This document shows positions 9,834 through 42,151 of a stretch of DNA of 64,000 nt, piece after piece. The notes beneath the pieces were generated by a model. The model had not been told where the DNA came from, did not search any database, and saw only the letters and a program-made list of their open reading frames with translations. The number at the start of each line of letters is the position of its first letter. Within the stretch, counting starts at the first letter, position 1. The stretch lies in the NCBI RefSeq assembly GCF_000470655.1, contig NC_021921.1, forward strand, positions 186,001 through 250,000, written 5' to 3'. The stretch is from Halorhabdus tiamatea SARL4B. GTDB taxonomy: Archaea > Halobacteriota > Halobacteria > Halobacteriales > Haloarculaceae. The position numbers and the translations under genes are program-made.

Positions 9834-10049
9834 AGCCGTCGTCCGAGCGTCTCTTTCGGGAACAAATATCAACGAGTTGTCGCTGACGTTTATATCCCAA
9901 ACCCGGACGAGTGCCCGCTGTCGGCGGCTGCATCGGCCAGCCGGTTCAGCCACCGAGAGGAAAGCGATGTACATCGACCGGGCCATCACCGTGTGTGGAA
10001 GACAGAATCGACGGACGCAACAATCACAGCTGCGACGGGGACTCGGCGG
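9834..10049 (+). promoter_or_regulatory. Leader region of the TrkA-C pair, with TATA element and short upstream ORF
   Basis: A clear TTTATAT element at 9889-9895 is followed by no start codon at the usual 30-nt distance, so the transcript appears to carry a 5' leader of about 130 nt before the ATG at 10050. Within the leader a 28-codon ORF (9967-10053) ends in a TGA that overlaps that ATG (ATGA). It could couple translation to the main gene. An in-frame GTG at 9993 is an alternative, longer start. Confidence 0.4.
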
Positions 10050-12676: not shown

Positions 12677-12687
12677 GACGGCGGATG

Positions 12688-12695
12688 TTTATAAA
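12688..12695 (+). promoter_or_regulatory. TATA element, ParA-RecA fusion gene
   Basis: TTTATAAA begins 31 nt before the ATG at 12719, a strong match to a haloarchaeal promoter for a leaderless transcript and support for that start over the GTG at 12704. Confidence 0.6.
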
Positions 12696-12718
12696 TCGAG
12701 GCGGTGCCAACGGGTCAC

Positions 12719-14002
12719 ATGCTCGCAGTCGCAGGAACGAAGGGGGGCTGTGGAAAGACGACGGTGGCGATCGGCATCGCCGAGGCGTTCGCCCGGGCGG
12801 ACGTCCCCTCCGTCGTCGTGGACGCCGACCGACAGTTACCGAACCTCCACGTCATCGGTGACGTCGATCGTGACCCGACGAGCGGTCGAGTCCCGGACGC
12901 CGAAGATCCATCGACAGTTGCGGTCGAGAGTCCCCGAGAACCGACCGCCAGGCTGCTTCCCGCACCACTGCCAGACGAGGACGTCTCCGTCGACGCGGTG
13001 CTCGCTCGCCTCGCTGAGAGTTCGAGACAGACGATCGTCGATTGTCCATCGGGGGCCGGCCCGGACGCCGTCGACCCGCTCTCGGCGGCCGATAGAGCGA
13101 TCGTCGTCACGACGACGTCATCCCATAGCATCGAAGCCGCCACCGCGACGGTCGACATGGCGTCTCACCTCGACGTCCCCGTCGCCGGCCTGGTTGTGAA
13201 CCAGTCCGAACGCGTCCCGCCGTCGCTGGTCGAGGCCACTGACCGACCGGTCCTGGGGACGATCCCCGACCGAGCGTCGCCACTCACACATCCAGATACC
13301 TGTGACGCTTACGACCACATCGCCGCGGAACTGACCAATCGCTGGCCAGTGACTGATGGAACGACAGTCGCGGCCGACCGCCAGCGAACAGGCCTCGATG
13401 CCCTGGATGCGGGACTCGGCGGGGGCATCCCACACGGGAGCGTCGTCGCGGTGATCGCCGAACCGTCGAGTCAAGCCGAGCAGTTTCTCTACGCGCTGAC
13501 GGATGCTCGGGGAACGCTCTATCTCACGGTCGAACGATCGCCGTCGCTCGTCCGTGACTCGATCGAGTCGGCCGCCGTACCCACCGGGGATCCGACGATC
13601 CGCCGGCTCGATCCCGATGAGATCTATACCGAAGCGACTGGCTTTCTCGAGACGATACCCGACGGAGCAAACCTCGTCATCGACCCGATCGACGCCTTCG
13701 AACGGACTGATCGCGAGCAATATCGGCGCTTCATGAACGGGCTTCTCGAACACGTGCGCGAGACTGAGTCAGTCGCGTTCGTCCACTGTCTCGATAGCGA
13801 GGAGCCACCGTCCCTCAGACCCCTGACAGTCCATTTTTCGGATCTCGTCTTCGAGTTTGAGGCATCGATGAGTGTCGCCGGAATGGCCCAGTGTGTCACC
13901 GTCCCGAAGGTCCGAGGGGAGCCGGTTCCTGCAGCGACGATCGAACTCGATCTGATCGACGAGTCAGTCATCCCGAGTCGGTTGCCCTCCCACAGTGACT
14001 GA
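12719..14002 (+). CDS. ParA/MinD-like ATPase fused to a degenerate RecA/KaiC-like domain
   Basis: 427 residues. Residues 1-210 form a ParA/MinD NTPase with the deviant Walker A KGGCGKTT (8-15), the switch I VVVDADRQLPN, the Walker B IVDCPSGAG and the adenine-proximal VVNQSERVPPS. From about residue 220 a RecA-fold domain begins with GLDALDAGLGGGIPHGSVV, as in KaiC/Rad55 proteins. Its P-loop reads AEPSSQAEQF and lacks the catalytic Lys and Thr, so it probably does not hydrolyse ATP. I recall this as the haloarchaeal DUF7125 type. ParA-like ATPases position surface machines, and neighbours encode a pilus. A role in placing or timing pilus assembly is inference. Confidence 0.75.
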   Translation: MLAVAGTKGGCGKTTVAIGIAEAFARADVPSVVVDADRQLPNLHVIGDVDRDPTSGRVPDAEDPSTVAVESPREPTARLLPAPLPDEDVSVDAVLARLAESSRQTIVDCPSGAGPDAVDPLSAADRAIVVTTTSSHSIEAATATVDMASHLDVPVAGLVVNQSERVPPSLVEATDRPVLGTIPDRASPLTHPDTCDAYDHIAAELTNRWPVTDGTTVAADRQRTGLDALDAGLGGGIPHGSVVAVIAEPSSQAEQFLYALTDARGTLYLTVERSPSLVRDSIESAAVPTGDPTIRRLDPDEIYTEATGFLETIPDGANLVIDPIDAFERTDREQYRRFMNGLLEHVRETESVAFVHCLDSEEPPSLRPLTVHFSDLVFEFEASMSVAGMAQCVTVPKVRGEPVPAATIELDLIDESVIPSRLPSHSD

Positions 14003-14031
14003 CCAGCGGGCGAGGCCACGATTCCAAACCG

Positions 14032-14727
14032 TCACCGAACGCGTCGGCGCTCTATCTGAGAGCGACAGTCCCGAAGCCGGTCCGCGAGATCTTCGAATCG
14101 TTCGGCGGAGTCCTCGTCGGGCAACGCATCGCGAACGGGTACCCAGTCTTCCTGTGCCTGCTGAATCGCCACGCGTTCGGGGATGTACGTCACGGGTGCG
14201 TTGAACCGTGTTTCGATCTCCGTCCGGACGCGCTCGTACGTGGTGCGATCTGTTTTGTTGAGGACGACCGCCCCGACCGGTGTATCGAGTGTCACTGCGA
14301 GCTCTCGCGTCCGATCGGCGTTTTCGAGTGCCGCTTCGTCAGTGTTGGTCACGAGCACCACGACATCCGCGCTCGCAATCTCCGTGCCGACGTCGCGTGC
14401 GAGTCCGACCGGGCAGTCGACGACAACTGGACCGGACGTCCGATCGAGTCTCTCGAGCACTGTTTCGAACGTCCGGAGGTCGGCCGCCCGCGCTCCGTGA
14501 ATCGTTCTGCCGCAGGGGAGTAACTCCATATTCCAGAACTGCTCGATAGCATCCAGTGGCTCGACGCGTCCCGCGAGCACGTCGTGTAAGTCCGGGCCGG
14601 TCCCACGAGGGAGATCGGCACTCGAGAGATCGCCGTCGACGACGACCGCCTCGAGTTCCCGTGCCAGATTGAGGGCGACCGTCGACTTCCCGACGCCACC
14701 TTTCCCGCCCGCGACTGCCACGATCAT
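14032..14727 (-). CDS. MinD/ParA-family ATPase of the pilus locus
   Basis: 231 residues with the full deviant Walker A motif GGKGGVGKST (res. 6-15), switch I VVVDGDLSSADLP, Walker B VVVDCPVGLA and the VVLNKTDRT nucleotide-specificity strand. This is a functional-looking positioning ATPase of the MinD/ParA group. The start at 14727 overlaps the stop of the preceding gene (ATGA), giving translational coupling, and replaces a longer reading with 12 extra residues. It is the last gene of the leftward arm (pilin-like, adhesin, small protein, MinD) and converges on the ParA-RecA fusion gene. Localising the adhesin or pilus machine is a reasonable but unproven role. Confidence 0.85.
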   Translation of the reverse strand: MIVAVAGGKGGVGKSTVALNLARELEAVVVDGDLSSADLPRGTGPDLHDVLAGRVEPLDAIEQFWNMELLPCGRTIHGARAADLRTFETVLERLDRTSGPVVVDCPVGLARDVGTEIASADVVVLVTNTDEAALENADRTRELAVTLDTPVGAVVLNKTDRTTYERVRTEIETRFNAPVTYIPERVAIQQAQEDWVPVRDALPDEDSAERFEDLADRLRDCRSQIERRRVR

Positions 14728-15110
14728 CGCCGATCTGCCAGAAGTGCTCTTGGCGGTCGCCACCCGTCGAGGTCACGGAGGACTGCGCTGGTGTCCCTCC
14801 GGTCTGCGGACGTAACCCGCCGCACGTCGACGACGGTCAACGGTTGGTCGATCGGCTCCGCCGGGCTGGCGTAGCCCAGGCCGCGGCGTTCCCCGGGCTG
14901 AACGGTCCCCTCCCAGTAGTCTCCGTCCCACTCCGGCGTTTCGATTCCCGCCCGCCTGGGCGGCCACGGCGGACCCTCGAGTCGATTTTCGAGCCGGACG
15001 GCCTGGCTCGTCCCGCGCGTGTTCGTGACGGTGGCCTGGACGAACGTCACTCCGCCTTCGACGATCGTTTCCGTGTCCAATTCGACCATGTGTGATTGGA
15101 AATTCCCCAT
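14724..15110 (-). CDS. Small haloarchaeal protein coupled to MinD (DUF7857-like)
   Basis: 128 residues with no signal peptide and no membrane helix. It has a compact beta-rich pattern: TIVEGGVTFVQATVTN, RLENRLEGPPWPPRRAG and GERRGLGYASP. It resembles, from memory, the DUF7857 family, which occurs beside MinD genes in haloarchaea. The beta-sandwich look (immunoglobulin-like, with VTNTRG) could fit a protein-binding module. It sits 9 bp after the adhesin stop and overlaps the MinD start by 4 bp. A second in-frame ATG at 15089 is an alternative start. Function unknown. Confidence 0.65.
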   Translation of the reverse strand: MGNFQSHMVELDTETIVEGGVTFVQATVTNTRGTSQAVRLENRLEGPPWPPRRAGIETPEWDGDYWEGTVQPGERRGLGYASPAEPIDQPLTVVDVRRVTSADRRDTSAVLRDLDGWRPPRALLADRR

Positions 15111-15119
15111 TGATGCATG

Positions 15120-17435
15120 CTAGTGCTGGCGGGCGAGTAACACTCCACCGCCGAGGAAGGCCAATACGGTGACGACGATCCCGAAGCCGGGACCCGTAGT
15201 CGTCGTTGTTGCCTGGTTCGTCGTGTCGGGTGTGCTCGTACTATCAGCTCGAGGTCCGTCCCCACTATCGTCTCGAGGTCCGTCACTGCTATCGACCGAT
15301 TCTTCCGACCTGGACGGTGTAGGCGTCTCGTCCGTCTGGATAGTTATCGACCCGGCCTCCGAGTCGTCCCCGGTATCGACTTTGTATTCGACGGCGTCCG
15401 AGCCCTCGACGGTCACATCGAGTGAGACTCGTCGGGTCTCGCCACCATCGAGACGTACTGCCTCGCGAACGCGCTCGTGGCCGTCGATGGACAACGAGAC
15501 GTTCCTCGAGCCAGCACGGTCGCCGACGTTCTCGACGGTGGCCGTGACCGTGATCGTCTCACCTTCGGTGACTTCCGTCGGCCCATCGAGATCTCCCAGT
15601 TCGAACTGGGCTGGCGCACGGACCGTCGTTTTGGCACGCTGGGTCGAGTTCCCGACGGTCACGGCGTGTGTCACTGTCCTGCCGGTCGGTTCCGCCGCCG
15701 TGAACTCGACGCGGTGGATCGACTCACCCGGCGTGACGCGAACGCGCTTGTCGGTCGACTGCTCGCCACTACGGTAGGAAACGGGGATTGAGACGGGTGT
15801 GTCGGCAGTGTTCTCGAACGTCGCCTCCACAGCGTAGGTCTCGCCCGGCGTGACGGTCGCCGGTGCGCTCACGTCTTTGCACTCGACCGTATCCCGATCG
15901 AGGGCCGCGAGGGTGCCGAGATGTCGCTCCGCAAGCGTGACGTCGTACGTTCCAGTCTCGTTTACGGACCACGCGACTGTTTCCACCGTGTCCGCGTATC
16001 CGGAAACGAAGACGGTCTCTTCGGCGACTGTCTCGCCGTCGGCCGAGACCGAGAGGCGCTCGCTTCCGGGCATCCCGCCGTCGTTTTCGAACCTCGCGGT
16101 GACCGTGGCCGTGCTGTTGGCGAGAATCGCCGACGTGTCGAGCTGTGCGTCGGTCCGCGTGACGTTGGCGGGCGTCCGAACGTCGAGCGTCGCCGTATCG
16201 GTCTTTCCGTTGACGGTGACTGAGACGTTGGCCGTCCCTGTCTCGGACGGGACTACGGTCCTGTTCTCGATCGAGACAGCACCGTCGACGTCGTAGTCAC
16301 TCGTCTGCGTCGCCGTGGTGGTCGAGCCGTCGTACAACTCCAGCGTCACCGTGACGTCGGTCGTGTCCTCGACGCTGAGAGGCGAGTGTCCGACCGTGAC
16401 GTCGACGTCCTCGACGTGTTGCTCTAAGACCGGATAGCTGTCTGTCGTCATGAAATTGGTCCCGACGAAGAGGTACTCCATGTTCTCTTTCGCGGCTGGG
16501 CCAGTCATCTGGTCGGTCGTCAAGCCGGTAACCTCTCTTGATCCTTTGCCGACTCCTTCCGTGGTGCCACTCGAATTGAGGTCCCAATATAGTTCTGAGA
16601 GAGTAGGCGAGACGGTATCTGCCCATCCGAAAACTCCACCTGTTTGAGAGTTGCCGCGGATGGTTGATACTGAAAATGAATTTCGTATTTTATTTGATCG
16701 TCTGCTCAGTGTCCCAATGATCCCACCAGCTGCCTTATCTTTAGATTGGACCATTCCATGAGATGTAGATCCAAGAATTGTACTATCTGTAGATAAAAAT
16801 CCGAGAACACCCCCAATATATTCAGAGCCGATAACATTAGCAGTCGATCTTGAACTCTGAAGATCCCCTTTATGCATAGTCCCCGCTATACCACCAACCA
16901 TTCTGGCCCCCTCAATTTTCCCATCTACAGACATTGAACGAATCTTTCCATCCTCACAATAGCCCACGATTCCACCGACGTGATTTTTTCCGATGATATC
17001 TGCTTCTCGGACATGAATCGACTGCAGCTCCGCTCCTTTAGTAGCTCCAAAAAGCCCGACATGATCTTCAGAAACCCTCGTGATTGAAAGGCCCGTGATT
17101 ACGTGATCACGACCATCTATGGACCCCTTAAAAGGCCCATCCGGATTTGACCCCACAGGATCAAATCCTTCTCCTTTGTTCCAGTCTGCTGTCTCAGTAG
17201 CATTGATATCAGCAGCGAGAACGTAACTGGCGGAAAGGTCCTCTTCCATGGCTTGGAGCTCTTCTGCGTTTGTAACTACATATGGGTCTTCAGCGGTTCC
17301 AGACCCGGATAATGATTCAATGGATGTCATTTCAGATGCCGCAACCATCCCACTAATACTCATACCGAAGGCCAGAGCAATTATACAAATTACAATAGCA
17401 AAAAACGATTTTGAATGTGAAACTGTATTCCTCAT
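15120..17435 (-). CDS. GLUG-repeat, PGF-CTERM-anchored surface adhesin
   Basis: 771 residues. A signal peptide (about 1-33, hydrophobic core FFAIVICIIALAFGM) leads to a head with six GLUG-type turns (VGLFG 126, VGGIVG 153, VGGIAG 180, IGGVLG 207, AGGIIG 236, TGGVFG 265) spaced 27-29 residues apart, as in beta-helical adhesins. Three or four immunoglobulin/CARDB-like domains (about 340-700) follow, then a Ser/Thr/Asp stalk and a PGF-CTERM tail (GPGFG, a helix, basic end) that archaeosortase would cleave for lipid anchoring. The head is AT-rich while the rest is GC-rich. It lies 2 bp after the pilin-like gene. Likely mediates surface or cell contact. Confidence 0.82.
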   Translation of the reverse strand: MRNTVSHSKSFFAIVICIIALAFGMSISGMVAASEMTSIESLSGSGTAEDPYVVTNAEELQAMEEDLSASYVLAADINATETADWNKGEGFDPVGSNPDGPFKGSIDGRDHVITGLSITRVSEDHVGLFGATKGAELQSIHVREADIIGKNHVGGIVGYCEDGKIRSMSVDGKIEGARMVGGIAGTMHKGDLQSSRSTANVIGSEYIGGVLGFLSTDSTILGSTSHGMVQSKDKAAGGIIGTLSRRSNKIRNSFSVSTIRGNSQTGGVFGWADTVSPTLSELYWDLNSSGTTEGVGKGSREVTGLTTDQMTGPAAKENMEYLFVGTNFMTTDSYPVLEQHVEDVDVTVGHSPLSVEDTTDVTVTLELYDGSTTTATQTSDYDVDGAVSIENRTVVPSETGTANVSVTVNGKTDTATLDVRTPANVTRTDAQLDTSAILANSTATVTARFENDGGMPGSERLSVSADGETVAEETVFVSGYADTVETVAWSVNETGTYDVTLAERHLGTLAALDRDTVECKDVSAPATVTPGETYAVEATFENTADTPVSIPVSYRSGEQSTDKRVRVTPGESIHRVEFTAAEPTGRTVTHAVTVGNSTQRAKTTVRAPAQFELGDLDGPTEVTEGETITVTATVENVGDRAGSRNVSLSIDGHERVREAVRLDGGETRRVSLDVTVEGSDAVEYKVDTGDDSEAGSITIQTDETPTPSRSEESVDSSDGPRDDSGDGPRADSTSTPDTTNQATTTTTGPGFGIVVTVLAFLGGGVLLARQH

Positions 17436-17640
17436 AATTAACGATAAATCACTACCTCGGTGGACTCATCAGTAGCCTTATAATCGGAGTCGGAAGGAGG
17501 GATGACTTCGAACTCAAGACTTCCTCGATTTTGATCGGATCTGAAGTCGATATTTGCCTTATCTCGATCCGGACTACCTGAGATAATATCCAATTTGGCT
17601 GACCCATTTGTGGTGTTGAGTTTCATTGGTTCATCAACCA
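16560..17640. other. AT-rich segment across pilin end and adhesin head
   Basis: Base composition drops visibly from the surrounding GC-rich sequence to runs such as TTTCGTATTTTATTTGATCG. The segment covers roughly residues 93-159 of the pilin-like protein, the gene junction, and residues 1-290 of the adhesin. Both reading frames remain intact. Borders are by eye, within about 60 bp. It looks like a recently recombined cassette. Confidence 0.7.
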
Positions 17641-17917
17641 GCGTCAAACTCCCACTCCGAACCAGCACGTGCGCGCCCTCGACCGGATCGCCTTCGCTCG
17701 TCACGACACTCACGTTCGTCGTCTCACCCACCTTCACCAGTTCGTCGCTGAACTCCACGGTCACGGTCTCGTCCTGGAAGCTGTCGTCGAACTGTCCGAG
17801 GACGTTCATCATCAGCGAGAGGGCGGCGACGCCGACGACCAGTGCGATCACCAGCCGGATCGGTAACCCCTCGATCGCGCGTTCGTCCCCCGCGAAATCG
17901 CCAGTTCTGCGTCGCAT
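17438..17917 (-). CDS. Prepilin-like membrane protein paired with the adhesin
   Basis: 159 residues. The N-terminus has a charged leader, then ERAIEG followed by LPIRLVIALVVGVAALSLMM, which fits an archaeal class III signal peptide with PibD cleavage after Gly. The rest is an extracellular beta-rich region (VTVEFSDELVKVGETTNVSVV, resembling an Ig-like fold). It would be a minor pilin or an adaptor carrying the adhesin encoded 2 bp downstream. The first 90 codons are GC-rich, the last 65 AT-rich. The promoter is the symmetric TATA at 17941-17947, 30 nt from the ATG. Confidence 0.72.
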   Translation of the reverse strand: MRRRTGDFAGDERAIEGLPIRLVIALVVGVAALSLMMNVLGQFDDSFQDETVTVEFSDELVKVGETTNVSVVTSEGDPVEGAHVLVRSGSLTLVDEPMKLNTTNGSAKLDIISGSPDRDKANIDFRSDQNRGSLEFEVIPPSDSDYKATDESTEVVIYR

Positions 17918-17940
17918 ACCGTTCGTGGCTGCGCTCTGTC

Positions 17941-17947
17941 TTATAAA
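17941..17947. promoter_or_regulatory. Symmetric TATA element between the two pilus-locus arms
   Basis: TTATAAA reads as a TATA box on both strands. On the minus strand it lies 30 nt before the pilin-like ATG (17917), implying a leaderless start. On the plus strand it would drive the HerA-like gene with a leader of about 25 nt. One element may therefore serve both divergent arms. Confidence 0.5.
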
Positions 17948-17995
17948 CTCCCGGACGACCGTCCCTTCAAGTGCGATGGCGGGGCCAGGACCGCC

Positions 17996-19123
17996 ATGAC
18001 GTTCGTCCTCGGCCGCGGTGACGCGGACGACGACCTGCCGAAGATGCGCCTCGGAACCTACCGAGCCCTCGACGGAAGTCCCGGTGCGGACCTATTTTTG
18101 GACCTCGACCGTCCGCACGCGATGCTCGTCGTCGGCAAGCGCGGCTACGGAAAGTCCTACACGCTTGGCGTGCTCGCGGAAGGGCTCGCCGCGACGCCCG
18201 GTATCGCGCCGACGATCGTCGATCCGATGGGAATCTTCGGGCCGCTCGCGGGCGGTTCGAATGGCGAATCGAACCGGGATTTGGGTGGCGATGCGATCGC
18301 CGCGACGGTCTTCGAAGAACCGACAGTCGCGCCCGACACCCTCGATCCGCGATCGTGGTGTGCGCTACTCGGTCTCGACCCCGAGAGCGGCGCGGGCAGT
18401 CTCGTCTGGCGAGCGGCACAGGAACGTTCGACGCTCGCAGGCATGCGCAAACATATCACTGACGGTGATGCCCCCGACCGGGACGAGCGTGCTGCTCTCA
18501 ATCACCTCCGACTCGCCCAGTCCTGGGGCGTCTTCGACGCGGAGGGGATCGACGCCGAACAGCTCGGCGGCGGTGAGATCACGGTCGTCGACGTCTCTGG
18601 ACACGAGACGGCGGCGATGAGCGCCGTCTGCCGGGGCGTCGGCGAAGCGCTCTACCGCGCCGGCGTGAGCGACAGCGTCGATCGGCTCCCGTGGCTGCTG
18701 GTCGATGAGGCACACACGTTCTTCGACGGCGTCGCGGCGAGCGCCCTCGAGACCATTCTCACGCGGGGGCGCGCACCCGGCGTAAGTCTCGTTTCAGCTA
18801 CCCAGCGACCGAGTGCCGTCCCCGAGGTCGGGGTCTCACAGTCGGACGTTCTCCTCTCCCATCGACTGACTGCCGGGGCCGACCTCGACGCACTCAGGCG
18901 GGCCCAGCCGACGTACATGAACGGCTCACTGGCGGATCGGATGCCCAGCCAACCGGGCGATGTCGTCATCGTCGACGACGCCACGGAGACGGTCCACGCG
19001 GCCCGGGTTCGCGAGCGCGAGACGCCACACGGCGGTGACAGCCCGGCTGTGAGCGAAACCTCCTACGGCCAGTCCATCGAACGCAACGGACGGCCAGAGC
19101 ATGTCGATGTGCGCCCAGAGTAG
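17996..19123 (+). CDS. HerA/VirB4-like P-loop ATPase (DUF87-type) of the pilus locus
   Basis: 375 residues. Walker A is VVGKRGYGKSYTLG (res. 45-58), Walker B with the catalytic Glu is PWLLVDEAHTFF (about 231-242), and the sensor SLVSATQRPSAVP follows, the HerA/FtsK-like arrangement. Such ATPases pump DNA or protein as hexamers. No NurA nuclease is nearby, so a DNA-end-resection role is unlikely. The gene leads the rightward pilus arm and diverges from the pilin-like gene. I infer a motor or regulatory role in the surface system. It is shorter than typical HerA (about 500 residues) and lacks the full N-terminal HAS barrel. Confidence 0.75.
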   Translation: MTFVLGRGDADDDLPKMRLGTYRALDGSPGADLFLDLDRPHAMLVVGKRGYGKSYTLGVLAEGLAATPGIAPTIVDPMGIFGPLAGGSNGESNRDLGGDAIAATVFEEPTVAPDTLDPRSWCALLGLDPESGAGSLVWRAAQERSTLAGMRKHITDGDAPDRDERAALNHLRLAQSWGVFDAEGIDAEQLGGGEITVVDVSGHETAAMSAVCRGVGEALYRAGVSDSVDRLPWLLVDEAHTFFDGVAASALETILTRGRAPGVSLVSATQRPSAVPEVGVSQSDVLLSHRLTAGADLDALRRAQPTYMNGSLADRMPSQPGDVVIVDDATETVHAARVRERETPHGGDSPAVSETSYGQSIERNGRPEHVDVRPE

Positions 19124-19165
19124 ACAGCCCGCGGCTGCTGTCAACTCCACTCACCCCAAAGTTCG

Positions 19166-19654
19166 ATGATCCGATACGTCCTGGCGATCCTGCTGACGGT
19201 GGCGCTACTTGGAATCGGGGTGGCGGGCGTCGATCACGCCACGACAATTCGGAGTGAAGCGCAGGTCGAGACTCAGATCGCCGAGATCGAATCTGCGGTG
19301 ACCTCACTCCACGAGACCGAGGAACCGACCCCGACGGAGCAAGCCGGCGCGCGACGCGTGCTCGAACTCGATCTACCGTCGTCGGGATTCGCGTCGGAAC
19401 CGGTCGACACCTTTCGGATCAGACCGGACGCCCCCGGCATCACGACGATCGAGTATCGCGTCGATGGACGAATGACGCGCACGAAACACATCGAGACAAT
19501 CATCAAAAATCACAATGCCTCGGATGGGACGACCGATCTGAGCGGGGTTACAGGCCGCGTGACTCTCGCGCTCTCGCTCACAGCGGCGAGAAGTGCTCCC
19601 GGGAGCGATCCGGGGACGTATGTCACGCTACGGGTGCTGTCGAGGGGTCGATGA
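19166..19654 (+). CDS. Membrane-anchored pilus-locus protein (DUF7311-like)
   Basis: 162 residues. A single N-terminal hydrophobic helix (MIRYVLAILLTVALLGIGVAGV) is followed by an extracytoplasmic region with a predicted coiled segment (EAQVETQIAEIESAVTSLHE) and beta strands. This resembles minor pseudopilins, though no PibD site is evident. It matches my recollection of the haloarchaeal DUF7311 family that precedes pilB. The gene lies 42 bp after the HerA-like gene and before the pilB promoter. Function unknown. Confidence 0.65.
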   Translation: MIRYVLAILLTVALLGIGVAGVDHATTIRSEAQVETQIAEIESAVTSLHETEEPTPTEQAGARRVLELDLPSSGFASEPVDTFRIRPDAPGITTIEYRVDGRMTRTKHIETIIKNHNASDGTTDLSGVTGRVTLALSLTAARSAPGSDPGTYVTLRVLSRGR

Positions 19655-19720
19655 GTGAGTGCCGTCGCGGTTGTCTGGAGGGACCCGACCGAATGCTGCA
19701 ATCGGTGAGCGACACGGACG

Positions 19721-19727
19721 TTTATAA
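19721..19727 (+). promoter_or_regulatory. TATA element for pilB operon
   Basis: TTTATAA starts 30 nt before the pilB ATG at 19751, as expected for a leaderless message. It shows that pilB-pilC and following genes can be transcribed separately from the HerA-like gene. Confidence 0.55.
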
Positions 19728-19750
19728 CGGAGTGGGCAGCCACCGTCCCT

Positions 19751-21685: not shown

Positions 21686-23391
21686 TGGCGGTTCGTTCGG
21701 CTCTGCTCGTCGGCCTCGCGTGGCTCTATCGTTTCGAGGTCGAAGCGAGTGACGAACTCGTCGAGTCGGTCACGTTCCTGGGGTCGCCGCACACGCCCGA
21801 GACGTACGTCAAAGCCGGGTACAGTGCCGGCATTCTCGGGGCGTTGGTTCCGATCGGATTCACTCTCTGGCTCCCCTGGTACGCAGTCGTCGGCATATCG
21901 CTAGGGTGTTCGCTGGTGTCGATGCACGTCGTGCAGACGCTCCCGCACGTGCTCGCGTCGTTCGAACGGACCGAGGCGCTGGGGGACGCACCGACCCTGA
22001 TCGGGCGGGCAGTCCTCCGGATGCAGATCGAACCCTCGACCGAATCAGCCATCAGGTTTGCCGCCGAGACTGGATCGAGCTCGCTGGCGAGGAACCTCGA
22101 GACACACGTCGAAGCCGCCGTCGGGACGCCACGGACCGGCCTGCTGTCCTTCGCCGAGGAGTGGGCCGATCGGTTTCCGGCGATGCGGCGCTCGGCGTAC
22201 TTACTGGCGAGTGCCGGGGAGGCACCCGAGGCCGAGCGCAACCGGACGCTGGATCGCTCGCTTGCGGCCGTCCTCGACGGGACGCGCGATCGCATGGCCG
22301 AGTTCACGAACGCGATCCGCGGGCCGACCACGATACTGTACGCCTTTGGCGTGATGGTTCCGCTCGCGCTCGTCGCACTCGTTCCGGCCGTCGGGTTCGT
22401 GGGTTACGAGCTCAGTATCTGGTATCTGGTCGTTGGATACGACGTCGTCCTGCCGATCGTTCTGGTGGGGGCGAGCCTCTGGCTGCTCGCACGCCGGCCG
22501 ATCGCGTTTCCGCCACCGAAGGTCACTCGCGCACACCCGGACGTTCCGCCGCGAGCGCTCCCGACGCTGCTGTGGGGTGGGCTCGGGACGCTTGCTGGGT
22601 ACGCGCTCGTCACCGCAGTCGGTGTCGGCTACCTGGCCCCGATCGCCAGTGGTGGTCTCGGCATCGCCGGGGCGCTGATCGGATACGTCCGTCCCATCCT
22701 TCAGGTGCGAACGTACGTCCGCGAGGTCGAGGCGGACCTCACCGACGCGCTGTATCTCACGGGCCGACTCGTCGACGACGGCAACTCCGTCGAGACGGCG
22801 ATTCAGCGGGCTGGAGAACAAGTTCCGGGGGAGACCGGCGATCTCTTCGCCCGCGCTGCCGGCCTCCAGCGTCGACTCCACGTCAGCGTCCACGAGGCGT
22901 TCCTCGGCGAGTACGGCGTCGTCACGACAGTGCCGAGCCCGCGCGTTCGGGCCACCGTCGAACTCCTGGCGATCGCCGCCGAACAGGGTGCACCGGCCGG
23001 GCGCGCGATCGTCTCGATGGCCGATCACCTCGACGAACTCCGGGACGTCGAAGCCCAAACGAGACGACAGCTCTCGACGATCACCGACACGATCGACAAC
23101 ACCGCGACGTTTTTCGGGCCGATGGTCGCCGGGGCGACTGTCGGGCTTGCCGGCGGCCTCGCCGGGGAGGGAACGGCGATCGTAGACGGTGCGACGACGC
23201 TCCCGATCGAGCAACTCGGCATCGTGATCGGGGTCTACGTCGTCTCGCTGTCCTTTATCTTAGTTCCGCTCGCGGTCGCCCTCGAGGACGGCCTCGACTG
23301 GCCGTTGCTCGGCTATCGAATCGGCCGCTCCCTCCTCGGGGCCGTCCCGATCTACGTCGTCACCATTGTCGTCGTGGGGGCGACGTTCTGA
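21685..23391 (+). CDS. PilC/TadC-type platform membrane protein
   Basis: 568 residues with two type II secretion F domains separated by membrane helices, as usual for archaeal PilC: hydrophobic helices near residues 43-70, 215-270, 292-330 and 480-565. The cytoplasmic helical bundles in between contain GRAVLRMQIEPS and LYLTGRLVDDGNSVETAI, the characteristic first helix of the second F domain. It is the membrane platform on which the PilB ATPase acts to insert pilins. Its ATG shares a base with the pilB stop. Pilin-like genes follow after 51 bp. Confidence 0.9.
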   Translation: MAVRSALLVGLAWLYRFEVEASDELVESVTFLGSPHTPETYVKAGYSAGILGALVPIGFTLWLPWYAVVGISLGCSLVSMHVVQTLPHVLASFERTEALGDAPTLIGRAVLRMQIEPSTESAIRFAAETGSSSLARNLETHVEAAVGTPRTGLLSFAEEWADRFPAMRRSAYLLASAGEAPEAERNRTLDRSLAAVLDGTRDRMAEFTNAIRGPTTILYAFGVMVPLALVALVPAVGFVGYELSIWYLVVGYDVVLPIVLVGASLWLLARRPIAFPPPKVTRAHPDVPPRALPTLLWGGLGTLAGYALVTAVGVGYLAPIASGGLGIAGALIGYVRPILQVRTYVREVEADLTDALYLTGRLVDDGNSVETAIQRAGEQVPGETGDLFARAAGLQRRLHVSVHEAFLGEYGVVTTVPSPRVRATVELLAIAAEQGAPAGRAIVSMADHLDELRDVEAQTRRQLSTITDTIDNTATFFGPMVAGATVGLAGGLAGEGTAIVDGATTLPIEQLGIVIGVYVVSLSFILVPLAVALEDGLDWPLLGYRIGRSLLGAVPIYVVTIVVVGATF

Positions 23392-23442
23392 GCAGTCGTC
23401 TGTGACTTTAAGTACGATACCCGGGCCAGGAGACCCAACCGC

Positions 23443-23892
23443 ATGGACGGCGTACTCTCGGGCCGCGGGCAGACCGAACCCCTGGCAGCGCTGGCTGCGA
23501 TCGCACTCGTCTGTACGGCGATCACGCTCTACACCGGGCTGTACGGGACGCTGTTCGACTCGGTGGGCGAGGAGCGCGCGCTCGGTTCGGTCACGGCCGA
23601 ACGGGTCTGGGACGCGATCGGCGAGAACGGGGTCTACGACAGCGACGACGACCTCCGAACGCGAATCGAGCCGGCGACGATCCCACAGGGTGCGAACCTC
23701 GAGGTGACGGTGACGTACGTCGGTGACGACGGGCGGATGGAAACGGCGGGATCGGCGACCTTCGACGCCCGAGGAAGCGTGATTCGGACGGATCCACCGT
23801 CGACCGCCGAGCGATTCGAGCGGTCGGTTCCGGTTCGGATCGCACCGGGCGACCTAAAGCCGGGGACGCTCACGGTGGTGGTCTGGTCGTGA
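23443..23892 (+). CDS. Pilin-like protein (DUF7285-like)
   Basis: 149 residues. The N-terminus GRGQTEPLAALAAIALVCTAITLY has a hydrophobic helix preceded by Gly and followed at position 5 by Glu-Pro, close to the layout of archaeal minor pilins. The rest is a beta-rich exported domain (LEVTVTYVGDDGRMETAG, VPVRIAPGDLKPGTLTVVV). It matches my memory of the DUF7285 family found after pilC in haloarchaea. The end overlaps the GTG start of the next gene. Probably a minor pilin; no experimental role known to me. Confidence 0.7.
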   Translation: MDGVLSGRGQTEPLAALAAIALVCTAITLYTGLYGTLFDSVGEERALGSVTAERVWDAIGENGVYDSDDDLRTRIEPATIPQGANLEVTVTYVGDDGRMETAGSATFDARGSVIRTDPPSTAERFERSVPVRIAPGDLKPGTLTVVVWS

Positions 23893-24881
23893 GGCGGCCG
23901 TCTCGCGCGATAAGCACTGTCGCAGACGTCACGCTCGCGATCCTGCTGATCGTCGCCGCGATGGGCGTCCTCGCGACGTTCGTCGACAGCGAGCAGAAGC
24001 GCCACGATCCGATGACTGCGGAGTACACGGCCGAGACGATCGCCTCGGGGACGATGAACGTCACTTACGACGTCGAAGCCGCGATCGACGACTACGCCGA
24101 CCTCGCGGGCGTCGATGCTGACGCCGATTACACCGACAAGGAACTCAAACGGCGTGCCCACGGGCCGATTGTCGCCCACGCCGCGGCGGCGGCCGTCCGC
24201 AACCTCGAGGTCGATCGCGACGCGCTCCGGGACGGATCCGGGCACGGCACCGTCGAACTGTCGAAAGACGCCGCGTACGAACGCGCCGTCGACGAGGCAC
24301 TCCAGACTCGCCTCGTCGAGTCGAGTTTCGACACGCAGGTGATCGCCGTCTGGGAACCGATCGAGGGTGGCCCCTTGCGCGGGGCAGCCACGCTCGGACA
24401 GACGCCGCCAGTGGACGCCGACGTGAGTGCGACAACGATCACCGTCCCGGTCGACGTGCCGTCGGTGCGTCAGCGAACTGTCGATCGGGTGGACGATCCG
24501 GACGACTTCGGGATCGTCGCGAACGCCGTCGCGTCGGCCGTCATCGACGGGTATCTCCCCGAGCGACGTTCCCAGCGAGCACTCGAAAGTGCCGGCGTTC
24601 GGCACGATCTCACGGCGTATCGCTACCGGCGGCTGGCGACCGTTCTGAGAACACCGACGAACGGCGTCGAATCGACCGTCGTGCCGGTACTCGACCGTCG
24701 AACGGCCAACGCGAGCGTCGCCAACACGGCGCTGACTCGGGCGCTCGGGACACAACTCGAAGCCGATCTCGAGTCGGCTGATCCGGCACGCCCGGCTGCT
24801 GGACCGCTCGGGAACGGGACGGCGGCAGCCGAGCGCGTCTCGACGGGGACGGTCACGATCACGGTGAGAACATGGAACTGA
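23889..24881 (+). CDS. Pilus-locus membrane-anchored protein (DUF7284-like)
   Basis: 330 residues. The N-terminal RAISTVADVTLAILLIVAAMGVL is a Sec- or pilin-type helix. The rest is an exported alpha/beta region with no cysteine. The GTG start overlaps the stop of the preceding gene (GTGA) and the end overlaps the next ATG by 10 bp, so it is part of a tightly coupled run. It resembles the DUF7284 family by memory. Possible role: minor pilin or periplasm-side assembly factor. Not recognised beyond this. Confidence 0.68.
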   Translation: MRRPSRAISTVADVTLAILLIVAAMGVLATFVDSEQKRHDPMTAEYTAETIASGTMNVTYDVEAAIDDYADLAGVDADADYTDKELKRRAHGPIVAHAAAAAVRNLEVDRDALRDGSGHGTVELSKDAAYERAVDEALQTRLVESSFDTQVIAVWEPIEGGPLRGAATLGQTPPVDADVSATTITVPVDVPSVRQRTVDRVDDPDDFGIVANAVASAVIDGYLPERRSQRALESAGVRHDLTAYRYRRLATVLRTPTNGVESTVVPVLDRRTANASVANTALTRALGTQLEADLESADPARPAAGPLGNGTAAAERVSTGTVTITVRTWN

Positions 24882-27800
24882 CCAAGCGAAGTGACGACCA
24901 GAAGCGACGGAAGCAGCGAGGTCGGGGACCGGACCGACGATTGGGAGACGACGATCGGGGCCGCGTCCCGTTTGCGATCGTCGGGGTCGTGCTCTTGCTC
25001 ACGAGCGTCGCGTTCGTGGGCCACGTCCTCCCACAATCGACCGTCACACCGGACGTCGACGCGAGCGTCGCGATCGCACAGACCGAGGGAGTCACACAGT
25101 CCGCGATCCGAACGGGGGCAAAGCGTGGTATCGAAGCGGCCGCCGCCCGGCCGGTGACCCAGGCGAGCGACACCGCGTGGGGGACGGCTCTCGCTGCCAA
25201 CAGCACGGATTCGACCTCCTCCGCCTCGACGGCCGAGGGGGCGCTACCGAGCGGGGCGTTTCGAAGATACCTCGCGGCGATGATCTACCTCGAAGTCGAG
25301 TCGACCGTAGAGCGGGCCGGACAGCAGGTCGGAGATGTCCGGACGAATGTCTCCGTGCCGTCGATCGAAACCCCGGCCGACCTCCGGGCGGCGATCGATC
25401 GTGTTAGCCTCTCGACGGCAGCGGAAGGCGTCCTTACGGTCACGATCCCAAACGTGACGATTCGTGCCAGGTCCGGCAACCGAACGCTCGAGCATCGAGA
25501 GACGGCGATGACAGTGTCGATTGCGACGCCGATCGCGCAGCTACACGATCGCGTCGAGCGCTTCGAAGACGCCCTCGCGGCCGGCGTGACCGAGCGTGGG
25601 CTGACCCAGCGGTTCAACGCGCGGATCTACGCGCTCGGGTGGGCGCGGGGCTACGCACAGAACTATCAGGCTCCGATCGTCCAAGTGATCGCGAACAGAC
25701 ACGTCCAGCCCGCACTCAACGACGCCATCTACCGGACCCAGAGAGACGTTTTCGGCGCCGCCGATCCGGAGTTACAGGACGCAAACAGACTCGGCTGGAC
25801 CTGTATGGCGCTGAAGGACGGCGGTTCGATGTTCGACGAGTACATGGGATCGAACGACGTCAGCTACGGGAACACCACGTTCACCGGCGACGAACTCGTT
25901 TTCGAGCGCTCGAACGGGACGCTGTCGGCCAGCGTCCCGACCGACGGGGCGAGTACCGCGGAGGCCCTGTGTTCGGGGGCCGAACTGGCACTCGGCGATC
26001 AGATCACTGGTGAACTCCCCGCTGCGCCCGGGACCCGCGACCTGCTCGGGCAGGCCCCCGGGATGAACGCGACCGAGACGATCGGCGTCAATCAAACGTC
26101 GTACGTCCCCTTCGCCCGGATGGCCGCACCAGATGGAGATCGGTCGATCGAAAATGTGATCGACCGGATCTACACGATCGACGGGCGCGCGAACACGAAC
26201 ACCCGCGTCGTCGACCCGCTCGAACTCTCCGGGACGGCGACGTGTACCAACGCGACGGACGAGCGAGGAACGTGTGCGAATGGGACGTGTGCGAACGCCA
26301 CGCGAGGGACGTATACAATCTCGAACGGACGCACCGTCGACGGAGCGCAATTCACCGAGAGGACGACCCGGCCGGAGGACTACTACGAAGCGAGATCCAC
26401 CGTCGAAGTCAGTGTGTCGAAATACAAACGATGTCCGCCCGGCCAGGACAACGCGCTGATCGACACCGACACGATGACGGTCGACGTCCGCACCCAGTTC
26501 GGTGAAGCCGACGCGAACCCGAACGCCGAGATCGACGGGGTGAACCCGATTTCCATCGGGGATGACAAGTACGACCGCGGGGCTGCGGTTTCCGGACTGC
26601 CGGCCGATTTCAGGAACTACGCCGGTAGCGAGTCCATCGTGACGGAATCACTCCTCGGCGACGAACCCAACCCGGAGGCACACGCGGCGTGGGTGAAATC
26701 AGCGTTGCCGAACCGGATCACCACGGAAGCGGACATCACGGGTCCAATCGCCGAGCAGTTGAACGTCCAGAAGCGAGTGACGCTCGATCACGACCGGTTT
26801 CTCGACGCGAAACTCGCCGCGGCGATCGCGTCGGATCTCACCGAGATGCGGCGGGCCGCGGCCGATATCACGTACGAATTCTCACGGACGGATCTGCTCG
26901 AACGTGGCGAGAAGAGTCCGTTCACGCGGCTGATCGAGAAGACGGAGACGACGTTGACAGAGCGGTATCTCGACCGGGCGGAACCCTACGACAGCGTCGG
27001 TCAAAAGGCGATCTACGAGGCGCGGTACGCCTACCTCCAGGCCCTGCTCGCGGAACTCGAAACAGTCGAGTCCGGCCACGAGAAGGCAGTCGGCGGCATC
27101 GACGACAAACTCGACGGGGCCGACCTGAGTCTGGAGAAGGCACTGACGTTCTTACAGGAAGGTGTCTCGGCGGACGAGCCCGATCCCGTGCCGATGAACT
27201 CCTCGAATCTGACGGGGACCGTCACCTACGAGGTCTCAGGCGCGCCGACCTACCTCGTCGCGGAGAACCTGACGAAACGGGATGTCCCGGCGATCCCGGC
27301 CGGGGCGGAGTTCACACCGCTCGCGATGCGAAACGAAGAGCTCCTGGATTCGCCCATCGACGATATCGCCAACGGCCTCGTCAGCAACGTGCTCGATGCG
27401 ATCAACCTGGGCGGGTCCGACGCGACGATACCACTCAAGACGGCCGGTGACGTGCTGCTGGCCGGCAATCTCGCCGCGGACGTCGAGGACGATCCGATCA
27501 CGAACCGCAGCTTCGAGACGTCTCTGGCTGCGCTCGAGGACACGGTCGACGAATCGCTCTCGACGTTCGGCGAAACTGTCGCCGATGGGACTGTCAAGCA
27601 ACTCTACCCGCACGATGCGGCCGCGTGTGTCGTCGCCGAGGACGCGGCCCGTGGTAGACGCGGACCATCCTGTGCAGACCGGTACGGCGACTCGCTGGTC
27701 GCGACGATCACCGCCGCTCACGACGAGATCGAACGTCGCGCCGACGAAGTCATCGCGGGGTACGACACGACGGGCGAGCGGGCGGTTGCGATCGGCAAGG

Positions 27801-28525
27801 GGAACGCGACTGCGCCGCTCGTCGAGACGATCACCGACGCGATCGACGCGGAGGCGTATCGACCCAGCGCGTTCACCGAGACCTACGACGCCGAACAGTG
27901 GCCCCACTTCGTCGAGTCGGCGCTCCGGCCTGCGATCGAGAACGCCAGCGCGATCACCGTCGATATCGAGGACGGACAACACGTCACCACGATCGAGGAG
28001 ACTGTCAAAACCAAGATCGGAGACGTGGCTACCGGCGTGGTCGAGGATCGGCTCGGCGACCTCACGAAACGGGCCCGCGATCGCATCAGCGACAAGATGG
28101 CGTCGTGGGGCGGTTCGTGGTCGAGTAAGCTGAAACGGCCAGCCAGAATCGCCGGCGGGCTGCCGTTGTTGCCGGTCCCCACCCACTGGTACGCGACGGT
28201 CAACGTCTGGGACGTCGACGTTTCCGGGGCGTACACGCGCTTGGAGGTGGACGCAAACGTTGGCAGCCCCACCAAGACGACCGCGACGACGTACGTCCGG
28301 GAGAACCGAACGGTGAGCGTCGACATCGCGGGTGAATCGCGCCGACTCGGCAGGGTCGAACCGATCGACTTCACGACGCGTTCGGTTCTGATCGTCGTGA
28401 CACCGACTGGCGTCGGCGTGGGCGATACTGACGGGGAGAACCCGGAGTGTTCGCCGACGTATCCGGCGGTCGGCGACGTCGACCCGGACGCAATCCAATG
28501 TGAGTATGACGGCACTGGGCACTGA
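24872..28525 (+). CDS. Very large membrane-anchored pilus-locus protein (DUF7286-like)
   Basis: 1217 residues, the largest protein here. A highly charged cytoplasmic start (KRSDDQKRRKQRGRGPDRR) precedes one hydrophobic helix (VPFAIVGVVLLLTSVAFV, about 31-50). Everything after it is outside the cell. It contains many Asn-X-Ser/Thr sites for N-glycosylation, a cluster of cysteines (about residues 457-475, plus 529 and 920-940) that may form disulfides, several long helical stretches such as EKTETTLTERYLDRAE, and a final beta-rich domain. It resembles the DUF7286 family in memory. It could be a scaffold or pore-side assembly protein of the pilus. Overlaps the gene before it by 10 bp. Confidence 0.7.
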   Translation: MELTKRSDDQKRRKQRGRGPDRRLGDDDRGRVPFAIVGVVLLLTSVAFVGHVLPQSTVTPDVDASVAIAQTEGVTQSAIRTGAKRGIEAAAARPVTQASDTAWGTALAANSTDSTSSASTAEGALPSGAFRRYLAAMIYLEVESTVERAGQQVGDVRTNVSVPSIETPADLRAAIDRVSLSTAAEGVLTVTIPNVTIRARSGNRTLEHRETAMTVSIATPIAQLHDRVERFEDALAAGVTERGLTQRFNARIYALGWARGYAQNYQAPIVQVIANRHVQPALNDAIYRTQRDVFGAADPELQDANRLGWTCMALKDGGSMFDEYMGSNDVSYGNTTFTGDELVFERSNGTLSASVPTDGASTAEALCSGAELALGDQITGELPAAPGTRDLLGQAPGMNATETIGVNQTSYVPFARMAAPDGDRSIENVIDRIYTIDGRANTNTRVVDPLELSGTATCTNATDERGTCANGTCANATRGTYTISNGRTVDGAQFTERTTRPEDYYEARSTVEVSVSKYKRCPPGQDNALIDTDTMTVDVRTQFGEADANPNAEIDGVNPISIGDDKYDRGAAVSGLPADFRNYAGSESIVTESLLGDEPNPEAHAAWVKSALPNRITTEADITGPIAEQLNVQKRVTLDHDRFLDAKLAAAIASDLTEMRRAAADITYEFSRTDLLERGEKSPFTRLIEKTETTLTERYLDRAEPYDSVGQKAIYEARYAYLQALLAELETVESGHEKAVGGIDDKLDGADLSLEKALTFLQEGVSADEPDPVPMNSSNLTGTVTYEVSGAPTYLVAENLTKRDVPAIPAGAEFTPLAMRNEELLDSPIDDIANGLVSNVLDAINLGGSDATIPLKTAGDVLLAGNLAADVEDDPITNRSFETSLAALEDTVDESLSTFGETVADGTVKQLYPHDAAACVVAEDAARGRRGPSCADRYGDSLVATITAAHDEIERRADEVIAGYDTTGERAVAIGKGNATAPLVETITDAIDAEAYRPSAFTETYDAEQWPHFVESALRPAIENASAITVDIEDGQHVTTIEETVKTKIGDVATGVVEDRLGDLTKRARDRISDKMASWGGSWSSKLKRPARIAGGLPLLPVPTHWYATVNVWDVDVSGAYTRLEVDANVGSPTKTTATTYVRENRTVSVDIAGESRRLGRVEPIDFTTRSVLIVVTPTGVGVGDTDGENPECSPTYPAVGDVDPDAIQCEYDGTGH

Positions 28526-28561
28526 GATGGCGTCGCGAAGATCGAAATCGCAAGAATGTGG

Positions 28562-28570
28562 CAAGGAGGC
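28562..28570 (+). promoter_or_regulatory. Strong Shine-Dalgarno sequence
   Basis: AAGGAGGCC sits 5 nt before the ATG at 28576 and marks that ATG, not the GTG at 28558, as the start of the DUF7283-like gene. An internal operon gene with a Shine-Dalgarno site contrasts with the leaderless first genes. Confidence 0.7.
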
Positions 28571-28575
28571 CGGAA

Positions 28576-29091
28576 ATGGACACTGAAGCGCCAGTCGACG
28601 CGTGGTACACCTGGGTCGGCGTTGCCGTCGTCGGCGTTGCCGTGCTCGGATTCGTCCTCGGATTACCGGGCCAGCCACCACCGGATGCGACAAAAGCCGC
28701 GAATACGATCGACCGGGTGGCTGGAAGCGTACAGGAATCCGCGGCCACGTACGAACACGACGCCGCGGCGGTCAACATCGACACCAGACGAATCGCAATG
28801 CGGAACGACGGCGGAACGACACGAGCGTCGGTGGCCTTCGGGTCACTCACGCCAGTGAGCGCAGTCGAAGACGCCGCGATTCGGGACGCACTCGAGCGAA
28901 TCACGCATGGACAGCCGCCGGGGGCAGTCCTCTCGGAGTACCGATTCGATTCGACAGCGTTGCGCACTGCGACCGAGCGCACGCGCGAACGCATCGACAG
29001 CAACGGTACCGCCTGGCAGCCGGCCGACGGCGTTCTAACCGTCCGGCGGGTCCACATCGACGGGGAATCACTCGTTCTCGTAGACGCATGA
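28576..29091 (+). CDS. Membrane-anchored pilus-locus protein (DUF7283-like)
   Basis: 171 residues. After APVDAWYTW comes one hydrophobic helix (VGVAVVGVAVLGFVLGLP), then an exported beta-rich domain: the segments DAAAVNIDTRRIAMRNDGG, ASVAFGSLTPV and VLTVRRVHIDG look like a single compact fold. It fits the DUF7283 family as I remember it, a regular member of this haloarchaeal pilus locus. The start is fixed by the AAGGAGGCC site. The stop overlaps an ATG of a short ORF (ATGA). Confidence 0.7.
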   Translation: MDTEAPVDAWYTWVGVAVVGVAVLGFVLGLPGQPPPDATKAANTIDRVAGSVQESAATYEHDAAAVNIDTRRIAMRNDGGTTRASVAFGSLTPVSAVEDAAIRDALERITHGQPPGAVLSEYRFDSTALRTATERTRERIDSNGTAWQPADGVLTVRRVHIDGESLVLVDA

Positions 29092-29249
29092 GACATCGAA
29101 TCAACCATCAACGATGGGGGAACCCACCGACGACGGGGTATCGAGCGGCGAAAGGACACTGGAACTCGGCAGGAACCGACCCAATCGACACTGGGTGTCG
29201 ACCGCGGAGCGGAGAAGGGAGTCCAGAGGGGGTGAGCACGGATGACTGA
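29088..29249 (+). CDS. Possible 53-residue coupled small ORF
   Basis: Begins at an ATGA overlap with the previous stop and ends 8 bp inside the next gene, so it fills the gap exactly. Its composition is basic (many Arg, Gly, His), unlike haloarchaeal proteins, and a 43-residue ORF in another frame (from ATG 29113) is acidic and equally possible. Kept as a low-confidence candidate; it may be noncoding spacer. Confidence 0.2.
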   Translation: MRHRINHQRWGNPPTTGYRAAKGHWNSAGTDPIDTGCRPRSGEGSPEGVSTDD

Positions 29250-29766
29250 CCTCGAGACGCTCGAGCAGCGACTGGTGGCGATCGAGCGGACGGTTTTGGA
29301 GGACGATCACGAGCGAAGGGCCTTCGAGGGTGATTCGGCGGCTGATGCCGACCTCGAAGGGATCGAGACCAGACTCGACGCGCTCGAGGCGCGCGTCGCC
29401 GAACTCGAGGCGACTGTCCAGTCGATCGACGGGTACGTCTCGCAGGTCGAGTCCGTGAACCAGGCTGTCGAGCGCCGGGCGGACGCGGCGCTCGCGACGG
29501 TCGATCGGCTCGAATCCCGTCTCGAGGCGCTCGAAAGCACAGGAGACGGGCAACCGCGAGGTGACGAGTCACAATCGAGTGCCGGCCACGCCCAAAACGA
29601 CAAGGCGACGAACCGACCGGCGGATGCGCCCGCGCCTGTGAGACAGGATCGGGAGCGCTCGAATCCGACAGACGACGGCCAAGCCCCGGACGAGCACACG
29701 GACTGGCCCGGACCGCTCACGAAATTCCGAGACGTCTTCGCGGGCGTTCGTGAGTGGATTCCGTAG
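29242..29766 (+). CDS. Coiled-coil protein closing the pilus operon (DUF7310-like)
   Basis: 174 residues, soluble. Heptad-like leucine/glutamate repeats from residue 4 to about 97 (LETLEQRLVAIE, TRLDALEARVAELEATVQ, VDRLESRLEALES) form a long coiled coil. A polar disordered stretch follows, then a short aromatic C-terminal helix (WPGPLTKFRDVFAGVREWIP) that may dock on membrane or partner. It matches the DUF7310 coiled-coil family in memory. As the last gene of the rightward run it may link cytoplasmic parts of the machine. The stop abuts the converging DUF1405 gene. Confidence 0.72.
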   Translation: MTDLETLEQRLVAIERTVLEDDHERRAFEGDSAADADLEGIETRLDALEARVAELEATVQSIDGYVSQVESVNQAVERRADAALATVDRLESRLEALESTGDGQPRGDESQSSAGHAQNDKATNRPADAPAPVRQDRERSNPTDDGQAPDEHTDWPGPLTKFRDVFAGVREWIP

Positions 29767-40246: not shown

Positions 40247-40285
40247 CGCGGCGGACGAACACGTACGCCGACAGATCGGACTCTA

Positions 40286-40690: not shown

Positions 40691-40795
40691 TTCGTTCGCT
40701 TTCCTATGTAATCTCTCGGCCCAGTTATCAAATATAAAATCTGGAAGGAGCTGATATCAACGGCTAGCAAATACCGTTTCAATGCGTGAATGCCG

Positions 40796-41596: not shown

Positions 41597-41647
41597 CCTC
41601 GGATGACGGCCACAATGGTTTTACCGCTGGTGGCCGTATCAATAGAT

Positions 41648-42149: not shown

Positions 42150-42151
42150 CT

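Follow-up and report, generated by a model that had tools for sequence, protein, structure and literature searches.

The archaeal type IV pili that come closest to the system considered here are those of subclade 4F of Makarova et al. 2016 (PMC4858521); in the accessible part of that paper, they combine a VirB11-type ATPase with N-terminal cysteines, PilC, several pilin-like proteins with a single transmembrane (TM) segment and a cytosolic coiled-coil protein (arCOG07564), and they also occur in Methanocella. The same part of the source uses HerA only as a superfamily name and treats MinD as a usually stand-alone, general regulator of type IV pili (PMC4858521). The PilB3 (clade 2) and PilB1 (4C) systems of Haloferax belong to other clades (PMC6491452). 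Within a 64,000-nucleotide stretch of the genome of Halorhabdus tiamatea SARL4B (contig NC_021921.1, positions 186,001 to 250,000; hereafter the window), we analyzed a compact cluster of 16 genes (positions 9993-29766 of the window; 9886-29766 if the first promoter element is included) that unites a pilus operon of this kind with a HerA-like ATPase, a MinD ATPase and a ParA fusion protein. We consider it fairly probable that a dedicated type IV pilus machine of haloarchaea is encoded here, together with its regulon, in consolidated form at a single locus, with the HerA-like ATPase and its membrane protein pg, and MinD and its small partner DUF7857, as regular parts, HerA serving as a second motor and MinD in positioning. 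To our knowledge, descriptions of archaeal type IV pili include a single motor ATPase and lack PilT, which is not known in this lineage.

Several other known machines share individual features with the locus. Tad pili with TadZ likewise tie a TadA-like ATPase and a MinD/ParA-family ATPase to a pilus, but in the locus one long PilC (568 amino acids, aa) stands in place of TadB and TadC, an additional HerA-family ATPase is present, and neither a secretin nor TadG was identified; the term "Tad-like", used in an earlier note that was made from the letters of this DNA alone, holds as an analogy, the split TadB/TadC platform being absent. The crenarchaeal Ups/Ced and Ted systems tie pilus genes to a VirB4/HerA-type ATPase, and Ted loci also contain ParA/MinD and HerA-like genes. 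In contrast to them, no CedA/TedA channel or VirB2-like pilin was recognized here by Pfam (no dedicated profile search was made), and the HerA-like protein lacks a predicted TM segment and is encoded with pg, either beside PilB-PilC or marked by the same promoter element. With the HerA-NurA end-resection complex it shares the HerA fold and motifs, but it is only 375 aa long instead of 500-600, its barrel is truncated, and it has no NurA neighbor. MinD4 and MinD2 of Haloferax volcanii (archaellum placement, cell shape) are likewise MinD-family proteins acting on a machine of the type IV pilus superfamily, whereas the MinD type found here has DUF7857 as its partner and follows the distribution of this pilus; its counterpart in H. 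volcanii may be MinD1 (HVO_0225).

Pfam confirmed every family that the earlier note had named, so that PilB, PilC, the HerA-like and MinD ATPases, the ParA fusion, the pilin-like proteins, the coiled-coil protein, DUF7857 and a GLUG protein are all present. The genes of the pilus operon and of its putative partners are as follows (E-values and AlphaFold confidence, given as the predicted local distance difference test score, pLDDT, are included; PDB, Protein Data Bank).

12716-14002, plus strand: ParA fused to DUF7125 (KaiC/RecA-like); Pfam E 4e-43; preceded by the promoter element in other genomes
14032-14763, minus strand: MinD ATPase of the DUF7857-linked type; Pfam
14724-15110, minus strand: DUF7857, small MinD partner; Pfam E 2e-25, phyletic coupling
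17438-17917, minus strand: pg, pilin-like, single-TM (DERAIEGLPIRLVIALVVG); weak DUF7382 match; Pfam, profile
17996-19123, plus strand: HerA-like ATPase, 375 aa; Pfam DUF87; AlphaFold pLDDT 90, best PDB fold HerA, E 1e-16
19166-19654, plus strand: DUF7311, pilin-like, single-TM; Pfam E 2e-38
19751-21685, plus strand: PilB assembly ATPase with N-terminal cysteines, TadA family; T2SSE E 1e-19
21685-23391, plus strand: PilC membrane platform, 568 aa; T2SSF E 4e-6
23443-23892, plus strand: DUF7285, pilin-like; Pfam E 2e-26
23889-24881, plus strand: DUF7284, pilin-like (RAISTVADVTLAILLI); Pfam E 6e-71
24872-28525, plus strand: DUF7286, single-TM, 1217 aa; Pfam E 4e-195
28558-29091, plus strand: DUF7283, single-TM; Pfam E 1e-47
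29242-29766, plus strand: DUF7310, cytosolic coiled coil; Pfam E 8e-27

Genes within one unit mostly overlap or are closely spaced, in agreement with the tight coupling claimed in the earlier note; a VirB11/TadA-type ATPase adjoins a T2SSF platform protein, and the pilB and pilC genes overlap. Six proteins (DUF7311, DUF7285, DUF7284, DUF7286, DUF7283 and pg) carry a single N-terminal TM segment, one more than the five pilin-like or membrane-anchored proteins counted before. At 40 loci of other genomes, the gene order DUF7310-DUF7311-PilB-PilC-DUF7283-DUF7285-DUF7284-DUF7286 is strongly conserved; the window departs from it in that DUF7283 and DUF7310 are relocated to the operon end. Cysteines C34, C36, C52 and C62 are invariant among the 10 PilB proteins compared, the DUF7310 coiled coil of the window is conserved across loci, and the PilBs of the consolidated haloarchaeal loci form one fully supported clade in a tree confined to this family. 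The PilB of this pilus may correspond to PilB2 of H. volcanii. Because of the N-terminal cysteines of PilB, the coiled-coil protein and the relatives in Methanocellales-type genomes, the core operon fits, by its gene content and not by an ATPase tree, subclade 4F as far as the accessible part of its description goes (PMC4858521), DUF7310 being likened to arCOG07564 by type and not by arCOG identity. Unlike the locus, that part of the description does not include a HerA-like ATPase, pg, MinD-DUF7857, ParA-DUF7125 or a common promoter element.

Variants of the operon occur as well. In some Natrialbaceae (L053, L057, L118, L126) it is split around HerA, with DUF7311-PilB-PilC running opposite to DUF7285-7284-7286 and the promoter elements retained, and one genome (G058; L036, L052) has the complete pilus operon, pg, MinD and DUF7857 in duplicate but a single HerA-like gene.

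The evidence that binds the additional ATPases to the pilus comes from three sides, beginning with gene neighborhoods. A profile scan of the named genomes for the HerA-like protein returned 80 loci. Its gene directly adjoins the pilus operon in many Natrialbaceae and in Halosimplex, Halorientalis and Haloarcula relatives, and such loci often also hold up494-up400, DUF7857-MinD and ParA-DUF7125, as in Natrialba asiatica (L161). In the Methanocellales-type genomes (f17; L199, L200, L205), it adjoins PilB (and PilC), with DUF7284-7286 located elsewhere. In the other haloarchaea, it is usually divergent from pg and lies near PIMT and RNA polymerase genes, not near NurA. MinD is always found with DUF7857, and HerA usually with pg.

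We then scored the presence of each part in 116 Halobacteria genomes, using score cut-offs that were chosen after the score gaps had been seen (for the HerA-like protein, above 139 bits and below the >200 bits at which full-gene scores resume; for the DUF7857-linked MinD type, in a clear gap of 151 vs 251 bits). DUF7286 is intact in 86 of the 116 genomes and present as a remnant in 3. The HerA-like protein is found in 82 of the 86 DUF7286-positive genomes and in none of the 30 negative ones; the corresponding figures are 85/86 vs 0/30 for DUF7857, 81/86 vs 0/30 for the DUF7857-linked MinD and 86/86 vs 1/30 for pg. For comparison, the archaellum protein FlaD/E is distributed 72/86 vs 20/30 (phi 0.18), and NurA is near-universal (115/116). 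Two candidate markers were dropped: DUF7125 is uninformative alone (112/116 genomes), since only its ParA-fused copy belongs to the locus, and up400 belongs to a widespread family of which only the extra copy is locus-specific. Conserved co-occurrence across haloarchaea, which had been set beforehand as one of two tests of the idea, is hence almost perfect, and it holds though most genomes carry these genes at unlinked loci. Where HerA lies mostly distant from the pilus operon (families f2 and f4-f9), it is present in 52/52 DUF7286-positive vs 0/13 negative genomes. Five genera (g9, g10, g15, g16, g35) each hold both states, and in each the parts are present or absent together, with the exceptions that pg is retained in G108 and partly in G012, and that MinD-DUF7857 is lost in G099. 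The clear exception is genus g4 (4 species; G036, G037, G049, G098), in which the pilus core, pg and DUF7857 are retained and the HerA-like protein and MinD are both lost; that the two were lost jointly counts in favor of the proposed machine. Beyond the Halobacteria, the HerA-like protein occurs in 21 of 22 genomes with DUF7286, methanogens included, vs 3 of ~142 others (197 Halobacteriota genomes). At one g4 locus (L109, G037), DUF7857 persists without a MinD neighbor and without the promoter element.

Unlinked parts also decay in the same genomes. In G056, DUF7286 is split into three frames and the remaining operon was not found, while at a separate locus of this genome HerA and pg have both lost their first part to one deletion. 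G012 has a deletion that fuses the beginning of DUF7310 with the final 216 residues of DUF7286, and it lacks HerA, MinD and DUF7857; the remnant in G067 is similar. An apparent chimera or sequencing frameshift, in which HerA-like and DUF7125 fragments share one open frame, is present elsewhere (G045:C1:2327403-2328275).

The third line of evidence is a common promoter element of 25 base pairs (bp), consisting of a haloarchaeal TATA box followed by GAAnnCGnGnCCA. A plain TTATAA promoter search had given only 2/40 matches, and the longer element became apparent from the sequences themselves. At 55 loci, the pg/HerA divergent region contains two opposed copies of the element, their offset being nearly always 33 bp. 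Likewise, the two divergent arms of the window flank a 78-bp gap (17918-17995) with two oppositely oriented copies, where the earlier note had placed a shared central promoter. We trained a weight matrix on the pg/HerA divergent regions only and scanned it over the other loci. In 28 unlinked pilus operons, 56 sites were found on the operon sense strand vs 2 in the remaining 901 kb of strand, an enrichment of ~115-fold. Within the 9 kb of each DUF7857-MinD locus, the top-scoring site lies at the DUF7857 start in 15 of 20 cases and is ≤165 bp away in 3 more. Among sites scoring >18, 167 of 172 and 105 of 109 in two locus sets precede a component (272/281 in total, 140 loci), counts that include the pg/HerA training sites; with the training sites removed, 81 of 86 sites of the first set still do so. 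The components preceded in this way are pg, HerA, DUF7310, DUF7311, PilB, DUF7283, DUF7285, DUF7857-MinD, ParA-DUF7125 and up494. The 64-kb window itself contains five sites scoring >15, vs 0.1 expected from Markov shuffles:

9886-9910, plus strand: element of the unit up494-up400-ParA/DUF7125; score 19.2; outside the training set; the called GTG start is 82 bp away
17926-17950, minus strand: element of the leftward arm; score 21.3
17963-17987, plus strand: element of the HerA-like gene; score 22.5
19718-19742, plus strand: element of PilB; score 17.0; outside the training set; the start codon is 8 bp away
23404-23428, plus strand: element of DUF7285-7284-7286-7283-7310; score 23.8, the best of the window; not in the training set

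In the window, the element ends 8 bp ahead of the start codon in the case of pg, HerA and PilB; the element at 9886-9910 is assigned less certainly because of its distance from the called start. As judged from their positions, these five sites could suffice for all 16 genes, grouped into five units. We regard the common element as strong evidence for one regulon, on which a common transcription regulator may act. The element was not found in the methanogen loci. A TFB-like gene adjoins DUF7857-MinD in most unlinked loci (L091-L110) and is a candidate regulator of this promoter class.

The HerA-like protein carries the features of the HerA/FtsK-type superfamily, namely Walker A, Walker B, TQ-P and Arg motifs and the HerA fold. 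Haloarchaeal and methanogen sequences share its Walker A core, DE, RG/P-G and TQ-P motifs without exception, and by its sequence it should be an active ATPase. The best matches of the AlphaFold model are to HerA (9x1m, 4d2i), with VirB4 matched as well. In this model, the N-terminal barrel is reduced to three short strands before Walker A, which lies at residue 47 vs ~147 in a solved HerA. An anti-phage HerA was considered and rejected: the PADLOC HerA models match the shared ATPase domain only (best E 1.7e-17), and no partner gene was found.

Three further genes complete the locus:

9993-11477, plus strand: up494, membrane protein, function unassigned; in the supercluster of other genomes
11474-12676, plus strand: up400, TM protein (TrkA_C-like domain) and additional paralogue within a widespread family; likewise part of that supercluster
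15120-17435, minus strand: GLUG/CARDB surface protein, variable, C-terminal TM; Pfam

The borders drawn in the earlier note (12719-29766) are too short on the left, where up494 and up400 belong as well; DUF1405 and MutL, on the right side, lie outside the locus. Over the GLUG/CARDB gene, the GC content falls to 53% (positions 16001-18000; surroundings ~65%), and the C-terminus of the protein resembles a PGF-type archaeosortase signal. This gene is probably a recently exchanged adhesin. A second GC dip (59-61%, positions 40001-44000) is unrelated to the locus.

How might these parts work together? PilB and PilC would build a filament from the pilin-like proteins DUF7283, DUF7284, DUF7285 and DUF7311 and the giant DUF7286, the major pilin probably being encoded elsewhere. 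The model of DUF7286 (moderate confidence, pLDDT 73) gave no PDB fold match at E<0.001. MinD-DUF7857 would place the machine at a chosen membrane site, comparable to TadZ in Tad pili. PilB would extend the filament, and the HerA-like ATPase would dock at its base via pg and act as a second motor for retraction or filament handling. Of the earlier proposal of a pilus with its own HerA-like motor and MinD positioning, the membership of both ATPases in the same system is well supported, while their work as motor and in positioning is what we infer.

Several observations weigh against this explanation. A major pilin was not found in the locus, no search aimed at the PilA family (arCOG02981) having been made; in subclade 4F, the dedicated pilin of this family is mostly encoded at another place in the genome. 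The pilus of genus g4 exists without HerA or MinD, so that neither is strictly essential, and G099 lacks MinD and DUF7857 despite its pilus. The 116 genomes are not independent samples, and from taxonomy alone about 9-10 separate concordant losses are arguable. Finally, the nearest folds of the modeled HerA-like protein are DNA translocases, which suits the movement of DNA no less than work on a filament. This last point, with HerA and VirB4 as best structural matches, speaks for DNA transport, an unlikely but serious contender, in which the pilus would bind or bring cells or DNA, the HerA-like ring would pump DNA across the membrane like CedB/VirB4-type ATPases, and MinD/ParA would place the machine or the DNA. 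Type IV-like pilus-dependent DNA uptake is known in Methanococcus, which also counts for it. Furthermore, the crenarchaeal Ted DNA-import loci hold HerA-like and MinD/ParA genes, and Ced works with the Ups type IV pili (PMC9905601). However, no CedA/TedA-like channel, ComEC, relaxase or nuclease was recognized by Pfam in the locus (again with no dedicated profile search), the N-terminal barrel of the HerA-like protein is truncated, and the prepilin peptidase PibD is reported to be without effect on Haloferax mating (PMC7749143). A second pilus motor is favored over DNA movement as the role of HerA; that the system is a hitherto unrecognized pilus-coupled DNA translocation machine, independent of Ced/Ted and extending from methanogens to haloarchaea, with a HerA-family pump, a dedicated MinD and scattered loci bound together by their promoter class, has in our view a rather small chance of being right.

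The known roles of the HerA and ParA/MinD families on DNA, and the persistence of the g4 pilus without either protein, would also suit an adhesion pilus that the two never touch, with the HerA-like and MinD proteins confined to regulating genes, partitioning chromosomes or serving assembly checkpoints. The common promoter element and the near-perfect coupling to a membrane machine argue against this, as do the constant pairing of MinD with DUF7857 and the usual pairing of HerA with the membrane protein pg, and we regard it as quite improbable. Chance neighborhood or lineage hitch-hiking without a functional link is nearly excluded: the presence patterns are partly phylogenetic, but unlinked loci are coupled within five mixed-state genera and again in the methanogens, share promoter elements and decay together. 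That the HerA-like protein, by its superfamily membership, might be a repair helicase partner of NurA is refuted by the NurA distribution and by the neighbors of the HerA-like gene. NurA is universal and encoded elsewhere (1.24 Mb from the HerA-like gene in this genome), whereas the HerA-like protein is absent from about one quarter of the genomes, has 375 aa and a truncated barrel, and is encoded at its unlinked loci beside pg, PIMT and rpo genes; the pairing with NurA elsewhere that the earlier note had named as fatal to its proposal was not seen.

The pilus type is already known; the membership of HerA/pg, MinD/DUF7857 and ParA-DUF7125 and the promoter element appear to be undescribed. We found no account of them in the searched literature (most subscription journals and all supplements lay outside its reach), and no papers under these DUF names. 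For a dedicated pilus machine as proposed here, the data mean that one widespread pilus type is tied in its evolution to a HerA-family ATPase and to a particular type of MinD. In most haloarchaea, the scattering of the parts hides this link from gene neighborhoods, and the window serves as a Rosetta stone for orphan genes, while the 25-bp element provides a means of compiling the complete list of parts for any haloarchaeal genome. DUF7286 and DUF7857 are both present in Haloferax volcanii, where the function is thus directly testable.

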